Positions 38,579 to 55,646 of a DNA stretch of 60,463 nt are shown here, one piece after another (within the stretch, counting starts at the first letter, position 1; the number at the start of each line of letters is the position of its first letter). The notes under the pieces are model-generated. The model made no database searches. It saw only the letters and a program-made list of their open reading frames with translations, and was not told where the DNA came from. The position numbers and the translations under genes were made by a program. Origin of the DNA: a virus; the IMG/VR virus record IMGVR_UViG_3300029787_000012, positions 30,185-90,647 of that record. One strand, 5' to 3'.

Positions 38579-38586
38579 TATTTATA
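38579..38586 (-). promoter_or_regulatory. T4-like late promoter before gp8
   Basis: The minus strand reads TATAAATA, 22 bases upstream of the gp8 start; it overlaps the end of the 4261-residue gene. Confidence 0.75.
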
Positions 38587-41500
38587 AGGATCTTAGACGA
38601 ACTTCTGGGAGAAGACTCACGTTTCCGCTTGTTGTCCTAGAGAATGGGAACTCAACTGTAAATGTAGTCGCTCCTGTGACGGTAACTATGTAGGTTCCGT
38701 CAAAACCTGTTCCACTTGTAAAGTCTAGATAAATTGTCTGACCTGTAGAGAAGAAATGATTACTTGATGTTGTTACTGTACACGCAGTTCCACTAGAACT
38801 ATAAGTTCCTGTTATCACAGCATGTTCTGCAGCAGTTGTTCCTAGATAACCCCTACCACCAGTTGCAACTGTTAAGGTATTACCAGAAACATCTTTTGCA
38901 CCAAATAAAATTCTTTCCGCATTCCATCTGTTTGGAGTAACAGTTGTATCATAGAATGGTATTAATACCTCACCCTCATCTGGGAAACCATTCTTCTGTG
39001 AGGAATTGTACCAAACATTTTTAAGATTGATAGTAGTTCCAGATTGAGAAAGTGTTGAGGTTAAGTAAGAGTTGGCAAGATTCTTAGAATTAGAAATAAT
39101 TCTATTTCTTTGTTTTCTTTCAATCGCCATAGGATGAGTTGGATTTACTGTAGGAGTTCCTTGAGTATATCCTGCACCACCATTCAAATTGATAACGTCA
39201 AGAACTTTACCACTACCTTGCTCAATAACAGTTTCTGCAAATGCACCTTCACCTCCACCACCTGTAAATACAAGGATTGGTGGAACTTCATAGTTTGAAC
39301 CAGGATCAGTGATATTAACCTGAGTTACCACACCATTTACAACTGTTGCAACAAATACTGCAGTTGTTGGTTTCAAACCAGTATATTCATAACTATCAAT
39401 CGTGATAGAACTAGAAATTTTAGCGATTGATCTATCAGAACCTTCACTTGCAATTTGCAATCTATCTCCTATATCAAGAGCATTGAATGTATTACTAATT
39501 AATACGTCAGCAGAAGAACCTGTGAAGATAAACATATTACATGTTGACCCTGCTCTAGGTGCTTCACTAAACTCGATAATAGAACCAGTTAATGAATATG
39601 CAACGCCAGGTTCCTGATATATTCCATTAAGGAATATTAGTAGATTGTTCTGTGCCTCTACTGATGGATTATCCGATTCTAATGAGAATGGTTCTGTCTC
39701 ACTCTTCATAACAAAAGTTTTCTTAGAACTATCAAAGAATGGTGCAATCTCATCAAGTAAAGTTAACTTACCAAGATAGAATCCATAGAAGTCCATACCT
39801 GGTACTGGTGGTTCATTAAAGGTTAATGTGCTTCCTGTGTATGTGTATGACTCTGTTGTACCTTTAACTTGGAAAGTACTATTCAAGAATATTAAGAAGT
39901 TATCACTTGCTGGTAGTACTTGTGTACTACCGCCTACCTGTGCAGTAAATGTTGTATCAGTACCGTCAAATGTTACTGTATCAACTCCAATTTGGAAGTA
40001 TGGTTGAGATGCAGAAGTCCTAGTAATACCAGATAAATCCCCAGTCGTACCAACGTTCATAGTTATTGTTGTCGTATCTACAGAAGTTAGATTTATTGCA
40101 GTGTCATAGAATGGGTCAGTTGATCTTGGATATGTATGGTTAGTAGCATAGTTGTCACGTGCACATGTAAATGTCAATGAGTTAGCAGCGATCTTAATAC
40201 TTGTTCCTGCAGTCAAACCGTGACCAGAACCAATAGTTAATACTAGTACACCTGTACTAGGTACATAACTCGCATCAGTCACATTATGATTGACTATAGG
40301 TGATGCTCCAACGTTGACTGTGATAGTATTAGTGGATGTGTTTGTAATAGTAATAGTTTGTCCAGATACAGGGTCAGTAGATCTTGGATAAGTCTTCGTT
40401 GCTGTATTTCCGTCCATAGCACATGTAAAGGACAGTGCATTGTCAGCTATGGTGAGTGTGTTAGATGTTGATAGACCGTGACCATTAGAGGTAATTACCA
40501 TATTACCTGATGATGGAGTATATGCTACGTTTGTTACTGGATTTGGTAAGTTACCAACGTTACTTGTAACACCGTTTGCTACAGCAGATACGAATGTATG
40601 TGCATAGTTACCACCTGACTGGACTGCATTACTTGCTGTACCGCCCGCCCATTGGTGAGTTCCAGAACCAACAGCTGTAGTAACTATATTCCATAGAGTG
40701 CTTATAGTGGATGCTACGTCTATACAACACGCAGTTGAGTATGATGTGCTTCCAGAGTCGTTACTGATTGTATTGTCTTTTATTTGTGTACCGACTGTGT
40801 AACTATTTGTAGTAACAGTAAGGTTACGCATAACCTCACGACATATATCTCTAGCGTGATTGAATACTTGTATAGACTCTGCTTCTTCATCTGCTAGGTG
40901 AACTGTAGAAACATAGAGACTTGCTGCATCATATGTTGCATCGTTTCCACCAAACTCTACGTTGTCAGAAACAGCATCAATAAGGATCTTAGTATCACGA
41001 ATACACTTAACTTGATAACTGCTAGAGAATCCCGCATTGTTTGCCATCATTCTGCCATATGCAGTAGTAGCAATGAATTCCTGATTAGTTCTCATTAATG
41101 ATGCAGCGTCAGCACCTTTGCTATATGCATAGACACCGTATGATACAACTGCTCTTGTGACAGCTGTAGAAGTGGCACTCACAAAAGTATGAGTTGATGT
41201 ATCAGATGATACACCGACATAAACAGTGAATGTATCATTTGTTACTTCATCAATTGTTAACCAAGCACCCTCTGCTGGATCTCCAACTCTAGGATAGGTA
41301 TGGTTTGTAGAATTATTATCTAAACCACAGGTAAATGTAAGAGAGTTATTTGCAAACTGTATTCTATCACCTTTAATCATTCCGTGAGAAGTTTTAGTCA
41401 ATACCATCTTCCCATCAACAGGTGTGTAAGTGATACCAGTTGGTTGGAACTGATAAGTTGATAACCCAACCCATGTATGTGCGTCTGTGTTGGTAGGAGC

Positions 41501-44500
41501 AGTTCCGTTTAATGCATTGACTTCAATAGTAGTAGTTGCAATTGCCTCAACAGGTATATCTCTCATCTTACCTTGTGTACCCAGTGGGTCAGTAGCACGA
41601 GGATATGATGCAGTACCACCACCGTTGTAACCACAACTAAACTGTAATGATTCGTTTGCAATTCTAACTGTAGATACTGCCTTCTTAATACCGTTTGATA
41701 CTGCTGATACAAATGTATGTGGATCAACGTTAGTGGAAGGGATAGTATCAAGAATCTGTACAGTGAATGTATTTGCAGTTACGTCAAATACTTGCAACCA
41801 TCTATCAGAAGCGTAGTCAGTAGAACGAGGATATGCCTTCTCTGCAGCAGCACCAGTAGCACCACCAAATCCACAACTGAATGTTATAGAACTATCTGCA
41901 AATTTAACTTGATCGCCATTTACAAACCCATGACTGTTAATAGTTACTACCATCAAACCTGTATTAGGATCGTATGTTGCTGTGGATGCTGTGTGAGTTG
42001 TTGGTGCCAATAAACCGTGACCAGAACCAATAGTCAATACCATGGATCCTGTAGCAGGATCATATGTTCCATTTGTAGGAATGAAATGCTTGACTAATTG
42101 TTCTCCAACACGAGCATCGGAAATACCAAGTACATCATTAGATGTGTATCCATTTCCTGCAGCATTTAGTACAACGTTACTAACCGAACCATTAGTGACT
42201 GTAATATCAGCAGTACCACCTGTACCACTTCCAAGATTGTTCTTGAGTGGTACATTTGTATAAGTTCCATCGCTATATCCAGAACCAGGTGTCAATCCAT
42301 TAGTTACATCAAATGCTTTGAGTTCATCTCCTATCTGATCTAACTGGAAACTACCTGAGTAAGTCTGACGATCATAGTACATCGCTAAAACTTCAGTTCC
42401 GTCTAGAGGAGGTGTAAGGAACGTTATTGAATTATTAGCAAATGTATAAGTTGCTGGATTTGTAACTAAACCATTAGTTATTACAAGTAATTGTGACTTT
42501 GCAGCAGTCTTACCAATCTGAGTACCAATAGCAATACCATTTGTTCTGAGTAAGAATGTATCGTTAACACCATCAATATACATTCTGATTGTGTGTCCAA
42601 CACCAGTTCCTACTGCAGTCAGATCAATAGCATTTCCTCCCTCAGTTGTTGCAAGTTCTATATTATTTGCATCAACATATTTCACATAATATGTTCCGTT
42701 GTTTGATATTCCACCTATTGCAGTTCCAGTTCTATTATTTGGATAATTTCCTGTGTTTGAGGTAGGAAGAGTTGATGGATTGTCAATACCGTTTGTAATA
42801 ATACCAGATAATGTGGTTATTGCAGATTTAACGTCTGTACACCCTCCAGAATCGGTTGTAATGCTTAAATCAGTTGTTGGGACTATGGTTGTATATGTAC
42901 CAGCTGGTAAACTGTTTGTTACTGCTAGATTACATAAGTCTCTTGCCTTATTAAATGCAAATATTGTCTCAGTCTCTTCACCAGCAATGTGTGCAATGTA
43001 GTTTGCTGGATTTGTCCTTGTGACAGTTGATAAACTGTCTGAGCTTATCGCAGTTGTCACGATATTGAACAAAGTATCCATAGCACTATCTACAGTTGCA
43101 CATATCGCTGCATCAAACGTTACACCAGTGTTCTTAACTTGAGTGTATCCATGGTTTCCTGTGATTGTAATATCTTGATTGATTATAATAGATGCTGCTA
43201 GTTCTTTTGCTTTATTAAACGCCCATATTGCCTGTGTCTCTTCATTGTCTAGGTGTACAGTGTTAACGTATAAATTTGCTGCATCCCATACCTCACTATT
43301 TGCACCATATGTTAAATTGTATGCGATTGCTTCAACAACATCTACAATATCGTCAATACAGTTCTGATCACCGCCAGGTACACCAGCAAAACCTGATGGA
43401 ATACCAACTGTTCCATCTTGTAACATTTGATACACTGCTTCAGCAGCAATTAGATTCTTATTATCTTTAAGTAAATTTCCAGCATCAATATATGCGTTAC
43501 CTTGACTAACAACACCACCAACATATGAGTTAGTTGCTGCTAGTGTAAAGTAATTACCACCATACTTGAGATCGTTTGCCCAAGCAGCGATTACAAGTCT
43601 AGTATCTCTAGCACATGTCGCTCCACTGTAATTAAGTGATGGATACGCTGCATTTAAAGCTCCGATAGTCTCTTCAACAATATGATCAATGTTAGCAATG
43701 ATCAAATCTCTAGCATCTTGGAATCTATCTCCACCAGCTTTGTAAGTTACACGTTGACCTTCAAGTAAACCGTGGTTTGTAAGTGTAAGTCTATTATTTG
43801 ATACATCTACAATGCTAGAGGATGACGCATCAAAAGTAATTGATCTATCACTAATGTCATCAATCTTATAAACGATACATGATAGGATTTTTTGAATATC
43901 TAATAGTTGTCTACCAAATACTGATACCTCTGTAGGAACTGCTGCAGTGTAATCTGGTTTTGCTAGTGCAAAGTTATTGATTACAGATAACTTACCAGTA
44001 TTCCTTGCAGATGGTTTGGGCGTAACAAATGTTGTACCATTAAATGTAGTTCCTATACTATTTGTTGTTGATTGCCACCAGTCAGTATCATTACCAGCAC
44101 TTAAATTAAGGTTTGGTCTAGATCTATAGTCCTTCTTGACTGATTGTGATAGTACTTGTGTACCAACTACCTTAAATCCTGCAGGATGTGCAGCAAACTT
44201 AAGTGGATTCTTCCAATCGTTGATGTTTATTGAAGATGATACGTCATATGAGAATTCTTGGAATCTATTACTGTCATAAACACGTTGTTCATTAAGATCA
44301 AGGAATCCAGTGGTTCTTTCCCAACCAGACGCACTAATACTGATAGGAGAAACGTCAAAGACTGCATCTGCTCTGGTAAATGTATGAATTTGACCAAATG
44401 CTGCAGTCTCTTCACCAAATACAGGTTCACCAATCTTAAACTCACCTTCTATAATCTCTACACTAACAACACGACCAGAGGCATCCCAGTTCTTAACAAA

Positions 44501-47500
44501 TCCATATGCAGTAAAGGAAGATGTTGATGCACCTTGATAAATTCTTTCTCCGATAGAGAAAGTTGCTGGTTTCATATATGCATTGATAACATCACCAAGG
44601 TCAATAGTTTCTAAAGTGAAAGCAGTCTGCCCTGTTGATATATCTCCTACAGGAGCACTAGTAAAGTTAATGAATGTTTCTGTATTTGCATTTGCAAGAG
44701 ATGATGCTAATCTAATTTGGTTATCTGCTAATCCATTTGCTGTAGTTGCTGCAATGGCATAGTAAACAGTATTAGTTGCTAATGGTTCTGGGAACTGTCC
44801 AGTAGTCTCTATAAGAGTTACTTGTGTACCTGAGGGTATCTTTGCATTATATGGGAAGTTCAATGTGCTGCTAGATTGTAATCCAACAAAACTATGACTC
44901 ACTTTTGCAGTTACAGTAGGTGCAGATGTAAATCCTCTACCAGGATTCTCAACAGTTACTGCCTGTATTACTTCATTCTCAATAATAGGTTTTAATGCAA
45001 ATAAAGAACCTTGTCCACCAGTAAGTACGATTTCTGGTTGAGATACAAAGTTTGAACCACCATTCACAACGTCAATGTAATCAATAACCTGAGTTCTAAT
45101 CAACTGTAAGTTATATGTTGTGTTTAGCGATGGTTTAAGTGTTCTATCATGTGAATAGTTGTATGTGATATTATCACCACTAATCTTAAGTATTTTTCCA
45201 AGGTCTGAAGATTTAAGTAATATAGATGCACCAGTTCCAGTTTTTTGTTCAATGTTGATAACAGGAGCACTTTGATATTGTATACCAGCTGCTTCTATAC
45301 CAATAGATGTAACACTCTGGTTTTGTATTGTTGCATTCAATACAGCATTAATTCCATTACCACCACTTACTGATATTGTTGGAGCAGATAAAAATCCAGA
45401 ACCTCCATTAGTAACTGTTACGGTGTCAATAGATGCATTGATAATAGTTGATATGGTTGCAGGATCAGCATGTGATAGTGTTTGAATTGTTATAGTAAAG
45501 TCTTCTGTACTATCACCGCCTGGTAACTTTGTACCATCAAAAGTAATTACATCACCTAGTGAATATGTACTACCGCCACCAGTAACAGATACTGTGTCTA
45601 TTCTTCCATTACCATCTGTTGTAAATGTAAATGTTGCTCCAGATCCACCAACGGGTGAAACAGTGGACTGTGTTACTCCAGTGGTTGTTGTAGTTGCAGT
45701 AAATGTTCCGTTACCCGCAGGTTGAGACGTAAGTGAGACAGTTGCGACAGATCCATAGTAAGGATCGTCAAATACGACACTTGGTGCGGATCTGTAATTA
45801 CTACCCGCATTTGTAACTGTCACAGAACTTAATTTACCACCCCCGCTTACAGCAGTGGCAACGATTGCTTGAGTTCCACTTATCGCTTGTATAGAACCTT
45901 GAGAGTCAGAACTGTATACATTATTGGTTGCAGCAGTTCCAGTACTGAACATGATGTAACCTTTATTACCAGCACCAGTTCTAGTGTTCTGTAATGGTTT
46001 TATTCTTAATACAGAGTTAACTGGGTTCCATGATATTACTTGAGCTCTTGCAGTTTGATTTCCTTGAGTTTCTTGAGATATAACGATCTCATTAGGTACG
46101 AATGAACCAAATACGTTTTGAAGCGTTAAATCAACAAAATCAGGTAACGTTACAACACCGTTAGGTAAAGATGAAGGATTATAACCAGATCCATCATTTG
46201 TAATTGATACACTAGATAATATTCCAGATATAGTTGCTACAGCAGTAGCACCAGAACCAGATCTTGTAGTTCCGTTGAATTTAGGTAAAGATGAGTAGTT
46301 TCTGCCAGGATCACCAACTGTAATTGTTTTTATACCACCTGTAGCATATATTGAGTTTGAAGCATATGATACGCCAACAGTATACCCTGCTTCTGGTTCT
46401 AGAGCAGTAATGTACTTAAACGTGGTATCTGTCTTTTCTGTAACCGTGTTTGTTCCAATTACAGGATCATTAATAGTTGTAAAGTAACTACCAGTTATTG
46501 CTCCCTGTAAATCGAAATAATAGAAAATACCAGGCAATCCTGTTATCTTAATCGTAATAGAGTTCTGTTCACTGGTTACAGAGTCTAATACTTCACTAGT
46601 AACGTTTTTATAAGTGAATATGTCTGTATTTGCTGGATCAAAGGTAAATGCTAACTTTTTACCCGCATTACTACTATCTGTAGTATCAAAGGTGTATGAG
46701 TGACCATCTATCAACTGTAACTTAGCTTCTTGAACATAAACTTCCGCAGTTGTGACATTTGCAGCTGCAGGAGTTGCAAAATTACTCTTTATCGTAAATC
46801 TACGTAAAGTTTCTGTTCTAATAACTGTATAGTCTGTCTTATTGTAAGACGTAGGTGAGACACCTGAGATATTGACTGTATCACCGATATTGACTTGATG
46901 TGCAAGATTCGTATGACATACTGCTTCTCTTTGTGTTTGTGTAAGTGTAATACTGAAACTAGAACCTCCTGCATTACCAAGGTTGATGTCTGCAGCAGAT
47001 ATTGTATCTCCTACGTTATATCCAGTTCCTGTTGAAGTAATCGTTACTGCAGTTACCGCATTTCCAGAAACAACAATAGTTGCTTGTCCACCAATACCAG
47101 ATCCACTAGTTGTTATAGGTACGTTGACATATGTGCCATTTGCGTAACCAGATCCACCAGTAATACTATTCCAACCACCTTGATATAGATTTCCATCTGT
47201 ACGTGTTCTTACATACGTCCATGTTAAGGTTCCGTCTGTTACAGTTCCAGAAGTGTGTGTAGGTGCATTTCCAGAACTAGAATCCGATGTTCCTGTATCT
47301 GCTGCTTTATAAACTCTGTTATCTACGTAAACAAGATCCTCTTTGTTGTACGCAGTACTCATTGTCCACGCAGAAAGAAGTTTTAAGCTCTGTAAGTCGA
47401 AATATTTGAAATGATACTTATTACTGATAATCTTACTGAATAGAGTTCTGGTATTTGCGTTATCAGTCACATCAACTGTAACTTGATCACCCACAAGTAA

Positions 47501-50500
47501 ATAATGGTTTGTAGATGTGTTTATTGTAGTAGTGTAGATGTCATCATACGCAGAAACCGCATTTGTAAGACTGGAGACAGTTACACCCTCAACTGTAGAC
47601 ACAGTTCCGCTAACTCCGTCTCCTCCAGTTCCTGTATTGTCAAATAACAGTCTATCGTTTACTTTATATTCTTTACCGCCACCTTCTACAAGATATTGAT
47701 CTATTCCCGCTGATGAGTATTTGTTTGTTGCAGATACAACAAGAGAATCTGCTAAACCACCTCTAATAGTAGGATAGTAACTATAGTATCCAATACCATC
47801 TTCAAGATACGCTAGATTCTCTCCAGTCTCCATAACAATTAATGTTGTAGTATCTTCCATGGATAAGAAGAAGTCAACTTTGTTATCAAGTTCCTTTCTC
47901 TTCGCTACAATATTATCCACACCTATAAATGGTTCTCTGTAACGTATAGCGTCTTCTGTGAAGTTTTTCTGCAAACCATTTCCGTTCCAGTTTACAGCAG
48001 CTGCTTCTCCGTAGAAATTAGGTCCTACAAAGTATGGAAACGCTGGTTCCCCTGCGGAACCTTTAATTGTAGCAAAATATGCATACACTCCATTTGGAAA
48101 CTCTGGAGTGACGCAGAATCTACCATTATATTCATCTAAATCACCTAAACCTTGTACATATTCATAATCTTCAATATAAGTCCCTAGAGGGTCGTTGAGA
48201 CCGCTTAGAAGGGCACTTCTACCATTCTTTACTCTATAACTACTAACTATCTGTTTATATGAGTTATATGGTGCTGCGTTCTCTGGATCAACGTAACCAT
48301 AAGGTCCGTATATTGGGTGTCCATCAAATGCCCATCCAATAATAGGAGAGTGTGCTGTAGGGTTAAGTTCCGTAAGAGCAGAGCTGATATTATCCTTTGT
48401 AAGGAACCTAAGCTTCTTAGGGTTGTGCATATATCCATATTCCCCGCCATATATCAAATAGTTTTCACCTTGTATTGACGCACCACCCGCAGTATCCGTA
48501 ACTTTACGCTCTGTGAATGATGAACTTCCCAATTCTGCTTGTGTTGCAGCTTCATTAAATGATAATTCCGTAAGGTTGGTTTGGAATGTTGCACCAGAAC
48601 CAGGATAAACAATAGTCACTGTAGTAGCACCAGCTGTATATCCCGCACCTTTGTTCGTAACATTAACAGAAGTAACAATATTTGTACCACTATCAACAAC
48701 AGCAAACGCGGTAGCACCAACTCCATCACCTGTAATGATGACATCAGGTGCACCATAATATCCAGTACCACCAAATGTGACGATTATACTTTCTATCTTT
48801 CCATTTAATATTGATGGATACGCAACAGCACCGCTACCAGTAATCAAATCAATAGTTGGTTCAAATGTATATTGACTTCCTGCATCAGTAATTGTGATTG
48901 TATCTACAGGTCCTCTACAGATTGCTGTAGCAGTAGCACCGCTTCCTCCTCCACCAGTCAGTGTGACAGTTGGAATACTTGTATATCCAGAACCACCTTG
49001 CACCACATTAATACCAGTAACTGCACCATCAGTGATTTGTGCTGTAGCAGATGCTTGATTATCTGATGTAGCTCCACCACCAGTAATAGAAACAACTGGT
49101 TGAGTTATGTATCCTGTACCACCGTCAGTAACGTTGACTGCTGTTACGGATCCTGTAACAGTTACAGTCGCTGCAGCGGACTCACCTTCATATGTCCAGT
49201 TAACAGTTCCGAGTGTCACTGTACCAAGTGTATGAGTAGGATGTGTTGTGGTAGAAGTTACACCAGCAGTATCCGCAACGTATCTGTTTCCATTATATTT
49301 TACTCTAGTTGATGATGCATATGTTGCACCTAATTTATGATCTGCTTCAAATTGTACTGTGGGTGGGTTTGTAATGTCGTATCCTTCACCACCAGTGGTC
49401 TTAGTAATTGATAATAGACCACCATACTTCTTAATACCCTCTCCTTTGTATGAAAAGAAAGGAACTCCGTTTACACCAAGACCAACTTGTCCTACAGGAG
49501 TTGCAGTCTTTGTACTTTTGACTGAGGGTGTGATTGGAATGCGTTTTAAGTACCTTTGGTTGCCTGGCACTAAATCAGTGGAAGCAAAAGGTCCTATCTT
49601 ATGAGTTGGTATACCTGTACTAGCAACAATGACGTCTGATGCGGATTTGTAAGTATTTTGTACGTCTCCTGTGAATTTATTGACTGCATTGTCGATTGAA
49701 CCATAATCACTCTTTCCAAATGCAAATTCTCTTGCAATATAAAACTCATAACCACTTATGCCATTAGCAGGGGTTGTAGTAAAGTTGAATTCAAAAGTAA
49801 AGTCATCAACAATACCTACAACATCGTGATTATTGTTATAGATGTCCTCAGGTGCATTTAGGATTCTAATTACGTCATCTCTGACCAATCTATGCTTCTC
49901 TTTAGTAGTTACGGTACATTTTACCGAACCATCAGCATTGATGCTTCCTAGGGTCGCTGAGTCGCCTCTGAGAGCACGTCTGACATTATAGATGAAGCTA
50001 TCATATATTGGATCAAGACTATCGAAGCCAGGTGCAGTGGGTGTGGTGACTTTTGAGTCTGGTAAGTAATATCTTCCACCATCATTAAGTGTAACCCCTC
50101 TAGTTCCACCAAATACCTTTAATTGTATCTCTGATCCGTCTATATTAGAATTACCGTAGATTTTAAACGCAGCAAACACTTCTTGTCCTGCATCATGGGC
50201 AACATTGACTGTATTTTCCCTAGCACGACTACATCCTAAGAATTGAGTAACAGTTTTGTCGGTATAAGTGATTATTTCGTCTTCTAATCTAAATCTACCG
50301 TTTTGTTGTGGCCATCCTAGTGTAGAATCAACTGTTACTACATCATCTATTAAATTAGCACCTAAATCCGAAGATAATACAGTTTTATACGGTGTAACAA
50401 ATGCACCAGATGAATTATTAGTATCTACGTCAATTTCAAAGATAGATCCTTGAGGAGTAAAGACTTCTACAACTCCTTTTACGTAAATACGTGCTGCTTC

Positions 50501-51367
50501 AACATCAGAGTCTGTTGCATCTGCTTCTTGATACAATACTTGACCTACAAGTGCAATAGGATCTCCAGAAACAGGAACTGCACGAATTACTTCTCTAGAA
50601 GTGAAGTATGCATCGGATGGTTTGAATATTCTGTCTCGTGGATAAGACACTTGAGAATCAACGCCAAAAAGTGACCTCAATACAAATTGGAAAGACCTTG
50701 TAGAACCCTTAGAAGCGTAAAAATCTTTAATTCTCTTAATTATTGTACTTTCTGTAACTCCAGTTGCAAAATTCTTTGGATATGTTGATAAAAACTGCTC
50801 TTTGAACTTCCCTAACATGTAAAGTGGGAAAATATTGTTCAAATTGACAACTGTAGCACCAATTGCGTGACTTGCAGCTACTGTAGACTCAAATTTATAC
50901 TCATTTTCCAATCCAACTGCCTTTACAGCGTTAAATCCGCGTGCACATGTTTGAAATAGTGTAGATCCTTTACTTTGGTAGTAAATTATCTCATCACCAA
51001 TCAATAAAAGTCCTTCACTAGGAAAATCACGTGTAGATTCGACGTCAATTGTTGTAGAAGACGTTGTGACAGCAGAAATTAGCGTTGTTTCAGTTACAAG
51101 TTCTCCATATTGGTCAATATTATAGTAATCACCCCAGTTTTGGATGATGTCAATGCAATATCCTTTTAATTCTTGTGATTTATAGTACTCTTTTACAAAT
51201 TCTATGAATGTGGGGAAGTTTTCCTGTATGAAACTAGGAAACTGTGCTTGTATGTTCGTAGATATCTTCGATCTCGACTCAGGACTAACCTCCGACGGTA
51301 CAGGCGTTGCTGTAACCGTGGTGGTCGGGGTAGTCCACGACCCAACTTTCCAACTACTATTTGTCAT
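38582..51367 (-). CDS. Giant baseplate-associated protein in gp7 position, YHYH domain, 4261 aa
   Basis: The N-terminal 200 residues (IQAQFPSFIQENFPTFIEFV, YKSQELKGYCIDIIQNWGDY, TLFQTCARGFNAV) are of the kind found in very large baseplate proteins of marine T4-like phages. Residues about 980-1120 are a YHYH domain (IIGWAFDGHPIYGPYGYVDP). About 700-900 and 1450-2100 are GSGY beta repeats. About 1540-1620 is a degenerate cupredoxin-like domain (YTFDTTDSSNAGKKLAF). Cys-initiated helical modules start near 2585, 2670 and 3450. C...YPR modules lie near 3165, 3245, 3350, 3650 and 3740. The C-terminus is an HG...DFTSG...DG module. It sits between gp6 and gp8, where T4 has gp7 (about 1030 residues). 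I infer a wedge-derived role with fibre-like extensions. Confidence 0.85.
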   Translation of the reverse strand: MTNSSWKVGSWTTPTTTVTATPVPSEVSPESRSKISTNIQAQFPSFIQENFPTFIEFVKEYYKSQELKGYCIDIIQNWGDYYNIDQYGELVTETTLISAVTTSSTTIDVESTRDFPSEGLLLIGDEIIYYQSKGSTLFQTCARGFNAVKAVGLENEYKFESTVAASHAIGATVVNLNNIFPLYMLGKFKEQFLSTYPKNFATGVTESTIIKRIKDFYASKGSTRSFQFVLRSLFGVDSQVSYPRDRIFKPSDAYFTSREVIRAVPVSGDPIALVGQVLYQEADATDSDVEAARIYVKGVVEVFTPQGSIFEIDVDTNNSSGAFVTPYKTVLSSDLGANLIDDVVTVDSTLGWPQQNGRFRLEDEIITYTDKTVTQFLGCSRARENTVNVAHDAGQEVFAAFKIYGNSNIDGSEIQLKVFGGTRGVTLNDGGRYYLPDSKVTTPTAPGFDSLDPIYDSFIYNVRRALRGDSATLGSINADGSVKCTVTTKEKHRLVRDDVIRILNAPEDIYNNNHDVVGIVDDFTFEFNFTTTPANGISGYEFYIAREFAFGKSDYGSIDNAVNKFTGDVQNTYKSASDVIVASTGIPTHKIGPFASTDLVPGNQRYLKRIPITPSVKSTKTATPVGQVGLGVNGVPFFSYKGEGIKKYGGLLSITKTTGGEGYDITNPPTVQFEADHKLGATYASSTRVKYNGNRYVADTAGVTSTTTHPTHTLGTVTLGTVNWTYEGESAAATVTVTGSVTAVNVTDGGTGYITQPVVSITGGGATSDNQASATAQITDGAVTGINVVQGGSGYTSIPTVTLTGGGGSGATATAICRGPVDTITITDAGSQYTFEPTIDLITGSGAVAYPSILNGKIESIIVTFGGTGYYGAPDVIITGDGVGATAFAVVDSGTNIVTSVNVTNKGAGYTAGATTVTIVYPGSGATFQTNLTELSFNEAATQAELGSSSFTERKVTDTAGGASIQGENYLIYGGEYGYMHNPKKLRFLTKDNISSALTELNPTAHSPIIGWAFDGHPIYGPYGYVDPENAAPYNSYKQIVSSYRVKNGRSALLSGLNDPLGTYIEDYEYVQGLGDLDEYNGRFCVTPEFPNGVYAYFATIKGSAGEPAFPYFVGPNFYGEAAAVNWNGNGLQKNFTEDAIRYREPFIGVDNIVAKRKELDNKVDFFLSMEDTTTLIVMETGENLAYLEDGIGYYSYYPTIRGGLADSLVVSATNKYSSAGIDQYLVEGGGKEYKVNDRLLFDNTGTGGDGVSGTVSTVEGVTVSSLTNAVSAYDDIYTTTINTSTNHYLLVGDQVTVDVTDNANTRTLFSKIISNKYHFKYFDLQSLKLLSAWTMSTAYNKEDLVYVDNRVYKAADTGTSDSSSGNAPTHTSGTVTDGTLTWTYVRTRTDGNLYQGGWNSITGGSGYANGTYVNVPITTSGSGIGGQATIVVSGNAVTAVTITSTGTGYNVGDTISAADINLGNAGGSSFSITLTQTQREAVCHTNLAHQVNIGDTVNISGVSPTSYNKTDYTVIRTETLRRFTIKSNFATPAAANVTTAEVYVQEAKLQLIDGHSYTFDTTDSSNAGKKLAFTFDPANTDIFTYKNVTSEVLDSVTSEQNSITIKITGLPGIFYYFDLQGAITGSYFTTINDPVIGTNTVTEKTDTTFKYITALEPEAGYTVGVSYASNSIYATGGIKTITVGDPGRNYSSLPKFNGTTRSGSGATAVATISGILSSVSITNDGSGYNPSSLPNGVVTLPDFVDLTLQNVFGSFVPNEIVISQETQGNQTARAQVISWNPVNSVLRIKPLQNTRTGAGNKGYIMFSTGTAATNNVYSSDSQGSIQAISGTQAIVATAVSGGGKLSSVTVTNAGSNYRSAPSVVFDDPYYGSVATVSLTSQPAGNGTFTATTTTTGVTQSTVSPVGGSGATFTFTTDGNGRIDTVSVTGGGSTYSLGDVITFDGTKLPGGDSTEDFTITIQTLSHADPATISTIINASIDTVTVTNGGSGFLSAPTISVSGGNGINAVLNATIQNQSVTSIGIEAAGIQYQSAPVINIEQKTGTGASILLKSSDLGKILKISGDNITYNYSHDRTLKPSLNTTYNLQLIRTQVIDYIDVVNGGSNFVSQPEIVLTGGQGSLFALKPIIENEVIQAVTVENPGRGFTSAPTVTAKVSHSFVGLQSSSTLNFPYNAKIPSGTQVTLIETTGQFPEPLATNTVYYAIAATTANGLADNQIRLASSLANANTETFINFTSAPVGDISTGQTAFTLETIDLGDVINAYMKPATFSIGERIYQGASTSSFTAYGFVKNWDASGRVVSVEIIEGEFKIGEPVFGEETAAFGQIHTFTRADAVFDVSPISISASGWERTTGFLDLNEQRVYDSNRFQEFSYDVSSSININDWKNPLKFAAHPAGFKVVGTQVLSQSVKKDYRSRPNLNLSAGNDTDWWQSTTNSIGTTFNGTTFVTPKPSARNTGKLSVINNFALAKPDYTAAVPTEVSVFGRQLLDIQKILSCIVYKIDDISDRSITFDASSSSIVDVSNNRLTLTNHGLLEGQRVTYKAGGDRFQDARDLIIANIDHIVEETIGALNAAYPSLNYSGATCARDTRLVIAAWANDLKYGGNYFTLAATNSYVGGVVSQGNAYIDAGNLLKDNKNLIAAEAVYQMLQDGTVGIPSGFAGVPGGDQNCIDDIVDVVEAIAYNLTYGANSEVWDAANLYVNTVHLDNEETQAIWAFNKAKELAASIIINQDITITGNHGYTQVKNTGVTFDAAICATVDSAMDTLFNIVTTAISSDSLSTVTRTNPANYIAHIAGEETETIFAFNKARDLCNLAVTNSLPAGTYTTIVPTTDLSITTDSGGCTDVKSAITTLSGIITNGIDNPSTLPTSNTGNYPNNRTGTAIGGISNNGTYYVKYVDANNIELATTEGGNAIDLTAVGTGVGHTIRMYIDGVNDTFLLRTNGIAIGTQIGKTAAKSQLLVITNGLVTNPATYTFANNSITFLTPPLDGTEVLAMYYDRQTYSGSFQLDQIGDELKAFDVTNGLTPGSGYSDGTYTNVPLKNNLGSGTGGTADITVTNGSVSNVVLNAAGNGYTSNDVLGISDARVGEQLVKHFIPTNGTYDPATGSMVLTIGSGHGLLAPTTHTASTATYDPNTGLMVVTINSHGFVNGDQVKFADSSITFSCGFGGATGAAAEKAYPRSTDYASDRWLQVFDVTANTFTVQILDTIPSTNVDPHTFVSAVSNGIKKAVSTVRIANESLQFSCGYNGGGTASYPRATDPLGTQGKMRDIPVEAIATTTIEVNALNGTAPTNTDAHTWVGLSTYQFQPTGITYTPVDGKMVLTKTSHGMIKGDRIQFANNSLTFTCGLDNNSTNHTYPRVGDPAEGAWLTIDEVTNDTFTVYVGVSSDTSTHTFVSATSTAVTRAVVSYGVYAYSKGADAASLMRTNQEFIATTAYGRMMANNAGFSSSYQVKCIRDTKILIDAVSDNVEFGGNDATYDAASLYVSTVHLADEEAESIQVFNHARDICREVMRNLTVTTNSYTVGTQIKDNTISNDSGSTSYSTACCIDVASTISTLWNIVTTAVGSGTHQWAGGTASNAVQSGGNYAHTFVSAVANGVTSNVGNLPNPVTNVAYTPSSGNMVITSNGHGLSTSNTLTIADNALSFTCAMDGNTATKTYPRSTDPVSGQTITITNTSTNTITVNVGASPIVNHNVTDASYVPSTGVLVLTIGSGHGLTAGTSIKIAANSLTFTCARDNYATNHTYPRSTDPFYDTAINLTSVDTTTITMNVGTTGDLSGITRTSASQPYFQIGVDTVTFDGTDTTFTAQVGGSTQVLPASDNFLIFLNSTFQVKGTTESYTYTGSTLTFNEPPVPGMDFYGFYLGKLTLLDEIAPFFDSSKKTFVMKSETEPFSLESDNPSVEAQNNLLIFLNGIYQEPGVAYSLTGSIIEFSEAPRAGSTCNMFIFTGSSADVLISNTFNALDIGDRLQIASEGSDRSIAKISSSITIDSYEYTGLKPTTAVFVATVVNGVVTQVNITDPGSNYEVPPILVFTGGGGEGAFAETVIEQGSGKVLDVINLNGGAGYTQGTPTVNPTHPMAIERKQRNRIISNSKNLANSYLTSTLSQSGTTINLKNVWYNSSQKNGFPDEGEVLIPFYDTTVTPNRWNAERILFGAKDVSGNTLTVATGGRGYLGTTAAEHAVITGTYSSSGTACTVTTSSNHFFSTGQTIYLDFTSGTGFDGTYIVTVTGATTFTVEFPFSRTTSGNVSLLPEVRLRSL

Positions 51368-51369
51368 TC

Positions 51370-53226
51370 TTAGTATTGATAGCTAGATTCTGGAAGCACT
51401 CCTGTTCCAGAAAGATTTGATCCACTACTGATAGTATCTTCTAATACACTAACAGTCGTATTATCTATACCTAGTGTCAGATAGGTTTCTCGTAAAGAAA
51501 TCAAATCGTTCGACTTGGGGCATGCAGATATTTGTAATTGATTATTAGTAACAGATGTAGACTGAATAATCAAGTCATTAATTACAATTTCACCCATGTC
51601 ATAGTCTATGGTTCCCCATAGTCCATCCACATACTCAAACTCACCAGTTCCTTTTACATAATACAAGCGTAATGTACCCGCACCATCATCATTTAGATAA
51701 TACGTATTAATGTCATCGCCCACAATCTTGAAACCAGACGAAGAAACTGAAGGTTTCGTTGATGTTTGCTGATTGATTCTGTTTCCATAACATATTTTGT
51801 AGTTAACACGAGCGTTGAGTTCGACTGTTACGTTCTTTCTCATCTTTACACGTGTTATATTAGATGTTATTGATGTCTCTGCATCATCAATTATCTTTTG
51901 TAACTTGGAAAACTTGAACTTTCCACCAAATTTGTTAAATTCTGCACTCGCATTAAGTGTAGTTAACGCTGCAATGATGATATTCTTAACCTCTGATGGT
52001 TCTCTACGTGTAACATTAGGGTTGAAGTAAGCAAAAGTGGTCAAATCAATGTAAAGTATGCTCGGATCAATGATAGTAGGTTGAATTGCAGCTACAGAAT
52101 ACTCTCTCAACTTCTTCAAAATGGCATTTTTCTCAGAAAGTGATAATTTATCAGCATTTTTTGGTTTGATTGCCAAAAATACCTTACCATACTCAGGTGG
52201 TTCTGCTTCTTCACCACCATAACATGCTATAGAACTTACGTTTGCGTAAATTTGAGGCACTATCGCTTCATAATCACGTGTAGAAACTGCTCTACCGAAC
52301 GCAGAATAGAATTTAGGAGCAGCAAACTTGATAGATTCTGTACTTTCTGCAGATGCACCTCCATCTGGGAAGCTTGTAACTGAAATTGTGATGCCAGAAG
52401 TGATCGCATTTAGATTATTATCTCTAAACGTACCAATATTATTAAAAACTTTCAGTCCATTTGCACCTGTTCCTGTTGAAGTTGCGTATTTTACGTCAAC
52501 AACATCACCATTAGCAAGGTTTTTACCAATAATACCGTCACCAAATAGAACTTCGGGTATCTCATACTCACTTTCCTCCAAGAAGAATACCTTAGAGTTA
52601 GCATCTATCTTTGTAATATCAGTCGCTTGTAAATATTTCTCTGTAATTGTACCAGAAGTCACCTCTACTATCATGGAGGAGGTGTCTGCATTTTCATTAG
52701 TTAATATAAATCTCTGTCTCTGACTAGTGTTCTTAACAAAAGTGTCTGTAAGGAACAGTCCTTCACTCAAAACTATATTAGAAAACGTTGCGATACCTGT
52801 TAAACTGTCTACAGATACTGTATTATCAGTCGGAAGAGAGAAAACAAAGTTGTTATTATCCAATCCTGTGAAGTTTAGTACCAATCCTGCTGCCATTGTG
52901 ACAGTTATAGGGTATGGAAACACTGTTTGAATCGAAATATCGACTGTACATGTTGCACTTCTTGCACTTTTTGGTGTATAACCAAGCATACGAGCAAGTT
53001 TTACAACATTTTCACGTAAAACTGCCGTTTCAAGGAACCCTTCGTTGACAGCAAGGTTCGCATTGACTGCTGTATAGTACGTATTATACGCAAGCGAGTC
53101 TAAAAGTACTGTAAGAGATGATCCTTCAAAGTCATAATCACTAAATTGTGACTGAGATCGTAAATATTCTTTAATTTGTGCCTTGATCTCGTTAAATTCA
53201 AGAGCATTAACTTGGTTGAATGCCAT
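51370..53226 (-). CDS. 6: Baseplate wedge protein gp6 (baseplate J-like), 618 aa
   Basis: It resembles gp6 of T4-type phages across its length (T4 gp6 is about 660 residues). Landmarks are the N-terminal LEFNEIKAQIKEYLRSQSQF, DYDFEGSSLTVLLDSLAYNT, VVKLARMLGYTPKSARSATC, the central EVLFGDGIIGKNLANGDVVD, the gpJ-type motif PKFYSAFGRAVSTRDYEAIV and the KNIIIAALTTLNASAEFNKF segment. gp6 forms the inner iris of the baseplate and joins wedges to each other. The ATG overlaps the stop of gp25 as TAATG, and the next gene begins three bases after the stop, so the gp25-gp6-giant order is a tight operon. Confidence 0.94.
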   Translation of the reverse strand: MAFNQVNALEFNEIKAQIKEYLRSQSQFSDYDFEGSSLTVLLDSLAYNTYYTAVNANLAVNEGFLETAVLRENVVKLARMLGYTPKSARSATCTVDISIQTVFPYPITVTMAAGLVLNFTGLDNNNFVFSLPTDNTVSVDSLTGIATFSNIVLSEGLFLTDTFVKNTSQRQRFILTNENADTSSMIVEVTSGTITEKYLQATDITKIDANSKVFFLEESEYEIPEVLFGDGIIGKNLANGDVVDVKYATSTGTGANGLKVFNNIGTFRDNNLNAITSGITISVTSFPDGGASAESTESIKFAAPKFYSAFGRAVSTRDYEAIVPQIYANVSSIACYGGEEAEPPEYGKVFLAIKPKNADKLSLSEKNAILKKLREYSVAAIQPTIIDPSILYIDLTTFAYFNPNVTRREPSEVKNIIIAALTTLNASAEFNKFGGKFKFSKLQKIIDDAETSITSNITRVKMRKNVTVELNARVNYKICYGNRINQQTSTKPSVSSSGFKIVGDDINTYYLNDDGAGTLRLYYVKGTGEFEYVDGLWGTIDYDMGEIVINDLIIQSTSVTNNQLQISACPKSNDLISLRETYLTLGIDNTTVSVLEDTISSGSNLSGTGVLPESSYQY

Positions 53227-53615
53227 TATGGTTTAAATGCAATACTAACATCATCAATTTTAGGAGCAAGTCCTAAGATAAGATATGATACACTAACGTT
53301 TAGTTCATTGCGATTCTCTTCCCAGTCTGCTATAACTTCGTAGACTGCAACCCTTGGTTCATGTATTTGTATAGCTTCAGTGATTCTTTCTTCAATCTCT
53401 GTTGCTAGACCGTTTGTGTAATTCTCAAATAAGAGTCCAATGATATTACCACCAAAGGTAGGATCAAAAGGTTTCTCATAAAAGTTATATAATACTATAT
53501 TCTTGACTGCTGCTTTGATGGCTGCTTCATTCTTGAGTGACAAAACATCGTTTGTAACTGCATTCTTTTCAAATGTTAAAGAGAAGTCTCTAAATGACTT
53601 CGATACCAATGCCAC
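53226..53615 (-). CDS. 25: Baseplate wedge protein gp25, 129 aa
   Basis: This is a GPW/gp25 family protein of typical size (T4 gp25 is 132 residues): SKSFRDFSLTFEKNAVTNDV, NEAAIKAAVKNIVLYNFYEK, FDPTFGGNIIGLLFENYTNG, and the signature EAIQIHEPRVAV. gp25 interacts with gp6 and starts sheath polymerisation in contractile tails. The start codon is GTG at 53615. A TATAAATA late promoter lies 28 bases upstream. It overlaps gp6 by TAATG. Confidence 0.95.
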   Translation of the reverse strand: MALVSKSFRDFSLTFEKNAVTNDVLSLKNEAAIKAAVKNIVLYNFYEKPFDPTFGGNIIGLLFENYTNGLATEIEERITEAIQIHEPRVAVYEVIADWEENRNELNVSVSYLILGLAPKIDDVSIAFKP

Positions 53616-53918: not shown

Positions 53919-54224
53919 TTAATTGTTGTTTGCGAATACTGTTGGACTTCCCCCAGTCATTGCTCCTGCATCGGCACTATCGCCAATACGAGCAACTTTA
54001 ACTCCTGCCACATATACATTGGGGGATCCTGCATTTACTGTAGCAACATGTGGAGCACACGCTGGTACAGGTGGAAAGGGGTGTGATACAGTCGGGTCTC
54101 CTACTCTTGCGATAAGGATGCCATCTGCATAGACAGTTGACTGAGAAGGGGTAGAGAGCGTGGTCGATCCTGCACAAGCGTGACCTGTGGAAAGACTATC
54201 TCCCTTTCTTGATACTGCTGCCAT
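53919..54224 (-). CDS. PAAR-repeat spike tip protein (gp5.4-like), 101 aa
   Basis: The protein has the PAAR pattern: repeated beta units VYADGILIARVGDP and VYVAGVKVARIGDS, the STGHACAGS opening, and metal-ligand candidates His15, His48, Cys56 and His59. PAAR proteins form the sharp conical tip on the central spike of contractile tails and bind a metal ion near the apex. T4 gp5.4 is of similar size (97 residues) and also lies just before the wedge genes. A GATAAATA late promoter lies about 83 bases upstream. Membrane puncture during infection is the expected role. Confidence 0.92.
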   Translation of the reverse strand: MAAVSRKGDSLSTGHACAGSTTLSTPSQSTVYADGILIARVGDPTVSHPFPPVPACAPHVATVNAGSPNVYVAGVKVARIGDSADAGAMTGGSPTVFANNN

Positions 54225-54906: not shown

Positions 54907-54917
54907 TATTTATTATA
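54907..54917 (-). promoter_or_regulatory. Late (NATAAATA) / TATAAT promoter before 58-aa gene
   Basis: The minus strand reads TATAATAAATA here, containing both a TATAAT box and an AATAAATA late motif. It is 22 bases upstream of the 58-residue gene. Confidence 0.5.
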
Positions 54918-54936
54918 TATGGAAACCAACACAATG

Positions 54937-55404
54937 TCAAGTACAAACATATCCTACAACATTGTCTGGTAGACCATCTAATCTTACCATGTCTTCTATC
55001 TTATCTGCATACATCAATACCTTATCAATACGCTCTTGCATATTCACTGCTATCTTCTCTTTCTTCCACTTAGTGTATGCTTCCTTCTGACACCAGAGAC
55101 TATAGAAGGTCTCTTTGTTGTCTGTAACTTCGTGAATGTCAAAGTATCTCTTAGTTATCTTCTCAAAAGGACGTTCTTTCATATATTCAATATCTACACC
55201 AACGTTCTTTGTGGATACTGCAACTACTGTATGACTATCAGTGTCTGACTTGTTCCAATATATCTGTACAGGTTTCTTACAGTTCAAAGTATAGTTCGGT
55301 AAGAAATCTTTGATGGCGGTTTTGACTAGGTTATCAGTAGACGCAATCGTATTACTGTAAAGGTATACTGAGGTGGTTTTGTTGGAAAAAATCTTAGAGG
55401 GCAT
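54937..55404 (-). CDS. 4'-phosphopantetheinyl transferase (Sfp/AcpS superfamily), 155 aa
   Basis: The protein shows the core PPTase signature: VGVDIE (Asp71 and Glu73, Mg and CoA ligands) and, 31 residues later, LWCQKEAYTKW with Glu108 (third Mg ligand) and Lys107/Lys112. A preceding strand (SDTDSHTVVAVS) matches the SHS-type segment of Sfp. Such enzymes move phosphopantetheine from CoA to a conserved Ser of carrier proteins (ACP, PCP). At 155 residues it lies between AcpS (about 120) and Sfp (about 225), suggesting a reduced N-terminal half. The frame is open to GTG 55434; ATG 55404 is preferred because it starts at the first beta strand and skips a Phe/Lys-rich tract. A structured 210-base leader precedes it. 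No carrier protein gene is in the window, so a host ACP is the likely target. Confidence 0.83.
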   Translation of the reverse strand: MPSKIFSNKTTSVYLYSNTIASTDNLVKTAIKDFLPNYTLNCKKPVQIYWNKSDTDSHTVVAVSTKNVGVDIEYMKERPFEKITKRYFDIHEVTDNKETFYSLWCQKEAYTKWKKEKIAVNMQERIDKVLMYADKIEDMVRLDGLPDNVVGYVCT

Positions 55405-55434
55405 TTTTTGGAAAAAAAATATTTTTAATATCAC

Positions 55435-55646
55435 GCTCGCGGATGCAAGACTTTATAGATTAGCTGCTCTGGGACTCCTTAAACGGCATACGGGGGGGCG
55501 ACGCTGTTTTAAGAGTGGTGATGCAAGAGGTTCGACTTAAAAGCGATTAGTGAACGCTACCCTTGCCTTGCATCGGTGTGTGGTCTTACATAGATTGATA
55601 TCCTTTAACGCATGGACTCTCACCATGCCCAATCAATGCCACGTTA
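55435..55646 (-). promoter_or_regulatory. Structured intergenic leader before the PPTase gene
   Basis: These 212 bases contain no credible gene. On the minus strand, two structured elements stand out. One has an outer stem GATTG/CAATC (55593-55597 with 55630-55634) around a GCATGG/CCATGC hairpin (55610-55628). The other has an 8-bp stem GATGCAAG/CTTGCATC (55520-55527 with 55567-55574) enclosing AGCG/CGCT. A third copy of GATGCAAGA lies at 55442-55450, which could compete for the same partner. A run of seven C's on the minus strand (55492-55498) and an eight-T run just before the coding start are also unusual. A possible -10 (TATAAA) lies near 55454-55459. It may be a regulatory RNA or attenuator; no known class is recognised. 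Confidence 0.45.

Follow-up and report, generated by a model that had tools for sequence, protein, structure and literature searches.

A probable short Sfp-type phosphopantetheinyl transferase in a cyanophage lineage, and its likely acyl carrier protein partner

Introduction

Sullivan et al. 2010 (PMC3037559) described an acyl carrier protein (ACP; T4-GC457) and its synthetase (T4-GC500) that are common to the Prochlorococcus phages P-HM1 and P-HM2 and absent from the other cyanophages in their comparison, and a 2023 review counted ACP in two of 153 cyanophages (PMC10452541). GenBank lists the T4-GC500 proteins of the two phages as 4'-P-pantetheinyl transferase. We found no functional study of the ACP and phosphopantetheinyl transferase (PPTase) pair in the open-access literature searched, and the main text of the P-HM2 transcriptome paper makes no mention of acyl or pantetheinyl genes.

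PPTases of the group I, AcpS type are about 120 aa long, carry the catalytic Asp near the N-terminus and form trimers, whereas the Sfp fold is a pseudo-dimer of two similar halves. The SH motif (NISHSG in Sfp), which precedes the catalytic strand, has a role in CoA binding; it is a common motif that supplies none of the Mg2+ ligands. In group II enzymes the Mg2+ triad is Asp-Glu-Glu or Asp-Xxx-Glu (Asp107, Glu109 and Glu151 in Sfp), and in those enzymes that have been examined, mutation of the first or third ligand removes activity or reduces it strongly (PMC4103896).

Here, we describe a gene of this kind in a 60,463 nt stretch of the virus record IMGVR_UViG_3300029787_000012, referred to below as the window.

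Results

A PPTase gene with intact signature motifs

The features discussed are collected in Table 1. An in-frame GTG lies 30 nt upstream of the ATG, and its use would add 10 residues to give a 165-aa form. The earlier note had read the frame as a PPTase from the motifs VGVDIE and WCQKEAYTK in a 155-residue frame, and both motifs were confirmed at the positions given in the table. Across all six frames of the window the spaced motif G.D[IV]E...W..KE[AS]..K has a single match, and 100 mononucleotide shuffles yielded none.

Table 1. Positions of the PPTase gene, its motifs and nearby features in the window
Feature	Position	Strand	Remarks
Sfp-type PPTase, probable	54937..55404	minus	155 codons, ATG at 55404 to TGA at 54937; T4-GC500 orthologue (P-HM2 PHM2_076)
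VGVDIE	55186..55203	minus	residues 68-73; predicted Mg2+ ligands D71 and E73
WCQKEAYTK	55069..55095	minus	residues 104-112; predicted third Mg2+ ligand E108, plus K112
NKSDT	55240..55254	minus	residues 51-55; occupies the position of Sfp NISHSG
Noncoding stretch ahead of the PPTase	55405-55646	minus	core at 55434-55458, CTATAAAGTCTTGCATCCGCGAGCG
Sigma-70 consensus	54912-54940	minus	TTGACA, 17 nt, TATAAT; perfect match
PAAR-motif protein	53919-54224	minus	PF05488, E=5e-12; same order in P-HM2 and MED4-213
gp25	53226-53615	minus	syntenic neighbour; same order in P-HM2 and MED4-213
4261-residue ORF	38582-51367	minus	at the P-HM2 gp7 position; many repeated glycine-rich segments

All 17 aligned sequences have a similar version of the core of the noncoding stretch, among them that of contig G031 (L130), which itself has no PPTase. 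The stretch had no Rfam match, and no tRNA or Rfam family was found anywhere in the window; the core may serve as promoter, RNA element or recombination site. The sigma-70 consensus at the other end of the gene overlaps the PPTase stop codon and points towards the small genes and the PAAR gene.

Family assignment and selection

A profile search against the ACPS family (PF01648), as the earlier note had suggested, gave a match above the curated cut-off (E=1.8e-7, 31.6 bits against 25), and the genome-level search agreed. Over its full length the protein matched PHROG 23098, which is annotated as of unknown function (E=3e-47). Two NCBIfam models matched over the core below threshold, AusB (NF047349; E=1.6e-10, 40.7 bits) and HetI (NF042922; E=9e-6, 25.1 bits), with scores far under their equivalog cut-offs of 225 and 370. 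Among PDB sequences, Sfp ranked first, weakly, in a phmmer search with the single protein (E=0.024); a profile built from 18 phage sequences found Sfp at E=2e-5 and no other entry below E=1, and a profile containing more phage sequences and three bacterial relatives found Sfp at 1e-8 and, weakly, human AASDHPPT.

Compared pairwise with its two nearest divergent relatives, the gene has a dN/dS of 0.18, dS being saturated in the distant pairs; with a ratio of about 0.2 it is under purifying selection. The profile matches, the conserved metal-ligand residues, the selection estimate and the fold search described below all support the initial reading as a PPTase. The catalytic Asp is residue 71, and the solved PPTases that the sequence and fold searches found were of group II, which is not the pattern of an AcpS-type enzyme. 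A short group II (Sfp-type) PPTase is very probably the correct class.

The predicted active site

In the phmmer and profile searches VGVDIE aligned with Sfp GIDIE, and WCQKEAYTK with Sfp WSMKESFIK, the DIE and KE..K residues being in register in the profile alignments. D71, E73 and E108 thus fall on Sfp Asp107, Glu109 and Glu151, and all three are invariant in 25 aligned relatives. Because they correspond to the Sfp ligands, the enzyme appears to be of group II with three metal ligands. The sole invariant residues in the 25-sequence alignment were G69, D71, I72, E73, R78, F100, W104, E108, A109 and K112. The SH motif is different: NISHS of Sfp is replaced by NKSDT or NKSNT in the phage lineage, with the His changed to Asp, or to Asn in one sequence (NKSNT in L088), whilst three bacterial relatives retain SISH or SITH.

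Of two AlphaFold models, the first (pLDDT 58.9) was too poor and was discarded. The better model, made from an alignment that included three bacterial PPTase-like proteins, had a mean pLDDT of 75.6 and a pTM of 0.66; confidence was around or above 80 for residues 1-100 and below 50 for residues 119-136. In the structural comparison with Sfp proposed in the earlier note, Foldseek placed Sfp (1qr0) first in the PDB (E=3e-3, probability 0.99), and ranks 1-31 were all occupied by PPTases. The TM-score to Sfp, however, was only 0.42, a weak whole-fold superposition in a model whose C-terminal part is of low confidence. The ranking supports the predicted fold class, and speaks by itself to the fold rather than to the geometry of the metal site. 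In the viral library the top Foldseek match was the MED4-213 orthologue, which is already named a 4'-phosphopantetheinyl transferase domain protein.

Relatives and a fixed genomic site

By tblastn against 50,697 phage records, full-length orthologues were found only in the Prochlorococcus phages P-HM1, P-HM2 and MED4-213, at 48-50% identity over 100% of the length. The order PPTase, small genes, PAAR, gp25, gp6, gp7 is common to the window, P-HM2 and MED4-213, and the gp6 gene of the window has 78-79% DNA identity to that of the sister Prochlorococcus phages. IMG/VR contigs found through gp25, a partly redundant set, were also compared: of the 47 with 1.5 kb or more of upstream sequence, 35 had the PPTase upstream of gp25, and of the 26 close relatives with 3 kb or more, 23 had it at the same site. 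The statement that PPTases are not standard phage genes is fair for phages at large, but does not extend to this cyanophage clade, where the gene is ordinary.

As regards a possible host origin of the gene, bacterial relatives were limited to three partial matches from one genome scan. In one of them, a rumen metagenome-assembled genome (MAG; L058, 4809-6188), the short PPTase runs in frame and with no stop into sequence that by eye resembles lipoyl synthase, which is either a fusion or an assembly error.

An acyl carrier protein in the sister phages

The earlier note had proposed that a carrier domain with a DSL motif might lie elsewhere in the phage genome. This was borne out in the three complete sister genomes and not in the truncated record that holds the window. 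P-HM1, P-HM2 and MED4-213 each encode one PF00550 carrier domain (E values from 3e-8 to 3e-10) in a protein of 155-164 aa. The serine of its DSL motif is intact and its proline-rich tail, QTPVPHPxSPxMSKxP, is conserved; its core resembles bacterial fatty acid synthesis (FAS) ACPs, which were also the best PDB matches. Among the 50,697 phage records, full-length PPTase relatives and ACP relatives occurred in exactly the same six records, which represent these three phages. The three genomes belong to one genus and amount to one phylogenetic sample, so the co-occurrence may reflect shared ancestry.

In the sister phages the ACP gene is about 22 kb from the PPTase gene; in P-HM2, where it is PHM2_029, it lies about 22.5 kb upstream (18917 against 41648). 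A baseplate-hub gene was upstream of ACP in all 27 loci examined (23 from IMG/VR and four others), and cpeT was downstream in all but two, both of which end before it. Neither PF00550 nor a phage-ACP profile detected a carrier domain in the window's own record. That record stops at the right edge of the window, a point that, judged by gene order and distances, corresponds to about 36.6 kb in P-HM2; as it ends short of the syntenic ACP position, the absence is uninformative, and this phage probably carries the gene too.

Among environmental contigs, 22 that bear the ACP, none longer than about 30 kb, were searched and had no PPTase; the PPTase-bearing contigs searched had no ACP but end before its expected site. 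The one metagenomic fragment that bears on the pair is therefore the relative G031, whose ACP is 51% identical and whose sequenced part, 87 kb, has no PPTase. A host PPTase may therefore suffice. Between the noncoding core and the PAAR gene of G031 (L130, 1430-3160), where the PPTase would sit, are several small ORFs, and the one that was tested had no Pfam match.

A separate observation concerns the annotation of P-HM2 PHM2_030 (NC_015284.1 19368-19865; also L030 1832-2329) as 'DNA endonuclease V', a label also attached to its relatives in several cyanophages. Its best Pfam match, to the 2OG-Fe(II) oxygenase family PF13640 (E=1e-5), narrowly misses the cut-off of 27 bits with a score of 26.8, and the label is possibly a widespread mis-annotation.

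Discussion

Our data are consistent with a model in which the gene encodes a competent short Sfp-type PPTase whose main substrate is most likely the phage ACP, and in which the holo-ACP draws on host acyl chains; we give this reading a probability of roughly 0.6. D71, E73 and E108 would bind Mg2+ and the pyrophosphate of CoA; the 4'-phosphopantetheine arm would pass from CoA to the serine of the DSL motif. The FAS-type apo-ACP of the phage, encoded in the sister phages between the baseplate-hub gene and cpeT, would become holo-ACP and could then take acyl chains from the type II fatty acid synthesis of the host. We hold the phage ACP to be the main substrate with moderate confidence. A more far-reaching reading, which we offer tentatively and consider rather doubtful, is that the clade runs its own carrier module, comprising the altered-site PPTase and the tailed ACP, for some purpose peculiar to the phage, for example the acylation of a virion protein or the diversion of acyl chains, and not as a supplement to host FAS.

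An active enzyme might instead act mainly on host AcpP, keeping it in the holo form as host expression shuts down and so sustaining FAS. Because the core of the phage ACP is FAS-like, host AcpP is a plausible substrate for any enzyme that works on the phage protein, and these phages often carry genes of host metabolism (PMC3037559). However, this would leave the ACP encoded in the same genomes unexplained; 157 of 185 cyanobacterial genomes have their own PPTase (PMC8600333), and the Synechocystis enzyme, Sppt, acts on FAS ACPs (PMC4103896); we regard host AcpP as an unlikely main target.

It is less probable still that the protein derives from a PPTase, has no transferase activity, and binds CoA or ACP, for example to sequester host AcpP. 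The unusual shortness of the protein and the Asp or Asn in place of the SH-motif His throughout the phage lineage would fit such a role, but the three Mg2+ ligand residues and K112 are invariant, a constraint that one would expect to weaken in an inactive protein. Lastly, it is highly improbable that the ACP-PPTase pair works with a neighbouring 2OG-Fe(II) oxygenase on a carrier-bound substrate. The oxygenase gene adjoins or overlaps the ACP gene in P-HM2, in G031 and at roughly half of the ACP loci from IMG/VR, but does not adjoin it in P-HM1, MED4-213 and many contigs. Its family occurs in 196 phage records, very few of which have this ACP, and on this distribution we reject a specific link between the two.

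Carrier-protein priming is seldom considered in phage biology. The joint retention of an ACP and a PPTase by ocean cyanophages hints at a step in infection that involves lipids or acyl transfer, and P-HM1 and P-HM2 with Prochlorococcus MED4 represent a cultured system in which that step could be tested.

With respect to known enzymes, the phage PPTase shares with Bacillus subtilis Sfp (1qr0) an Asp-x-Glu ... Lys-Glu ... Lys core in register, but is shorter (155 aa against 228 in the solved chain), with a shorter stretch before the catalytic GxDIE strand and Asp where the NISHSG motif of Sfp has His. The short PPTase-like proteins of rumen and metagenome MAGs (L057-L059) have 33-53% core identity and the GxDIEYMK(E/K)R segment in common with it; they differ in keeping the SH motif, in replacing the Lys before the catalytic Glu and in having a longer N-terminal part. 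The closest described relatives are T4-GC500 of P-HM1 and P-HM2, CPMG_00044 of MED4-213 and PHROG 23098, which have the same motifs and the same place upstream of PAAR, gp25, gp6 and gp7. Sequence divergence is the only difference in the enzyme itself, and the 'toxin' gene found between PPTase and PAAR in P-HM2 and MED4-213 is absent from the ORFs of the window there. The gene is a new orthologue of an annotated, published gene whose identification is already in the literature; modestly new here are the lineage-wide change in the SH motif, the fixed genomic site and the single contig, G031, with the ACP and without the enzyme.
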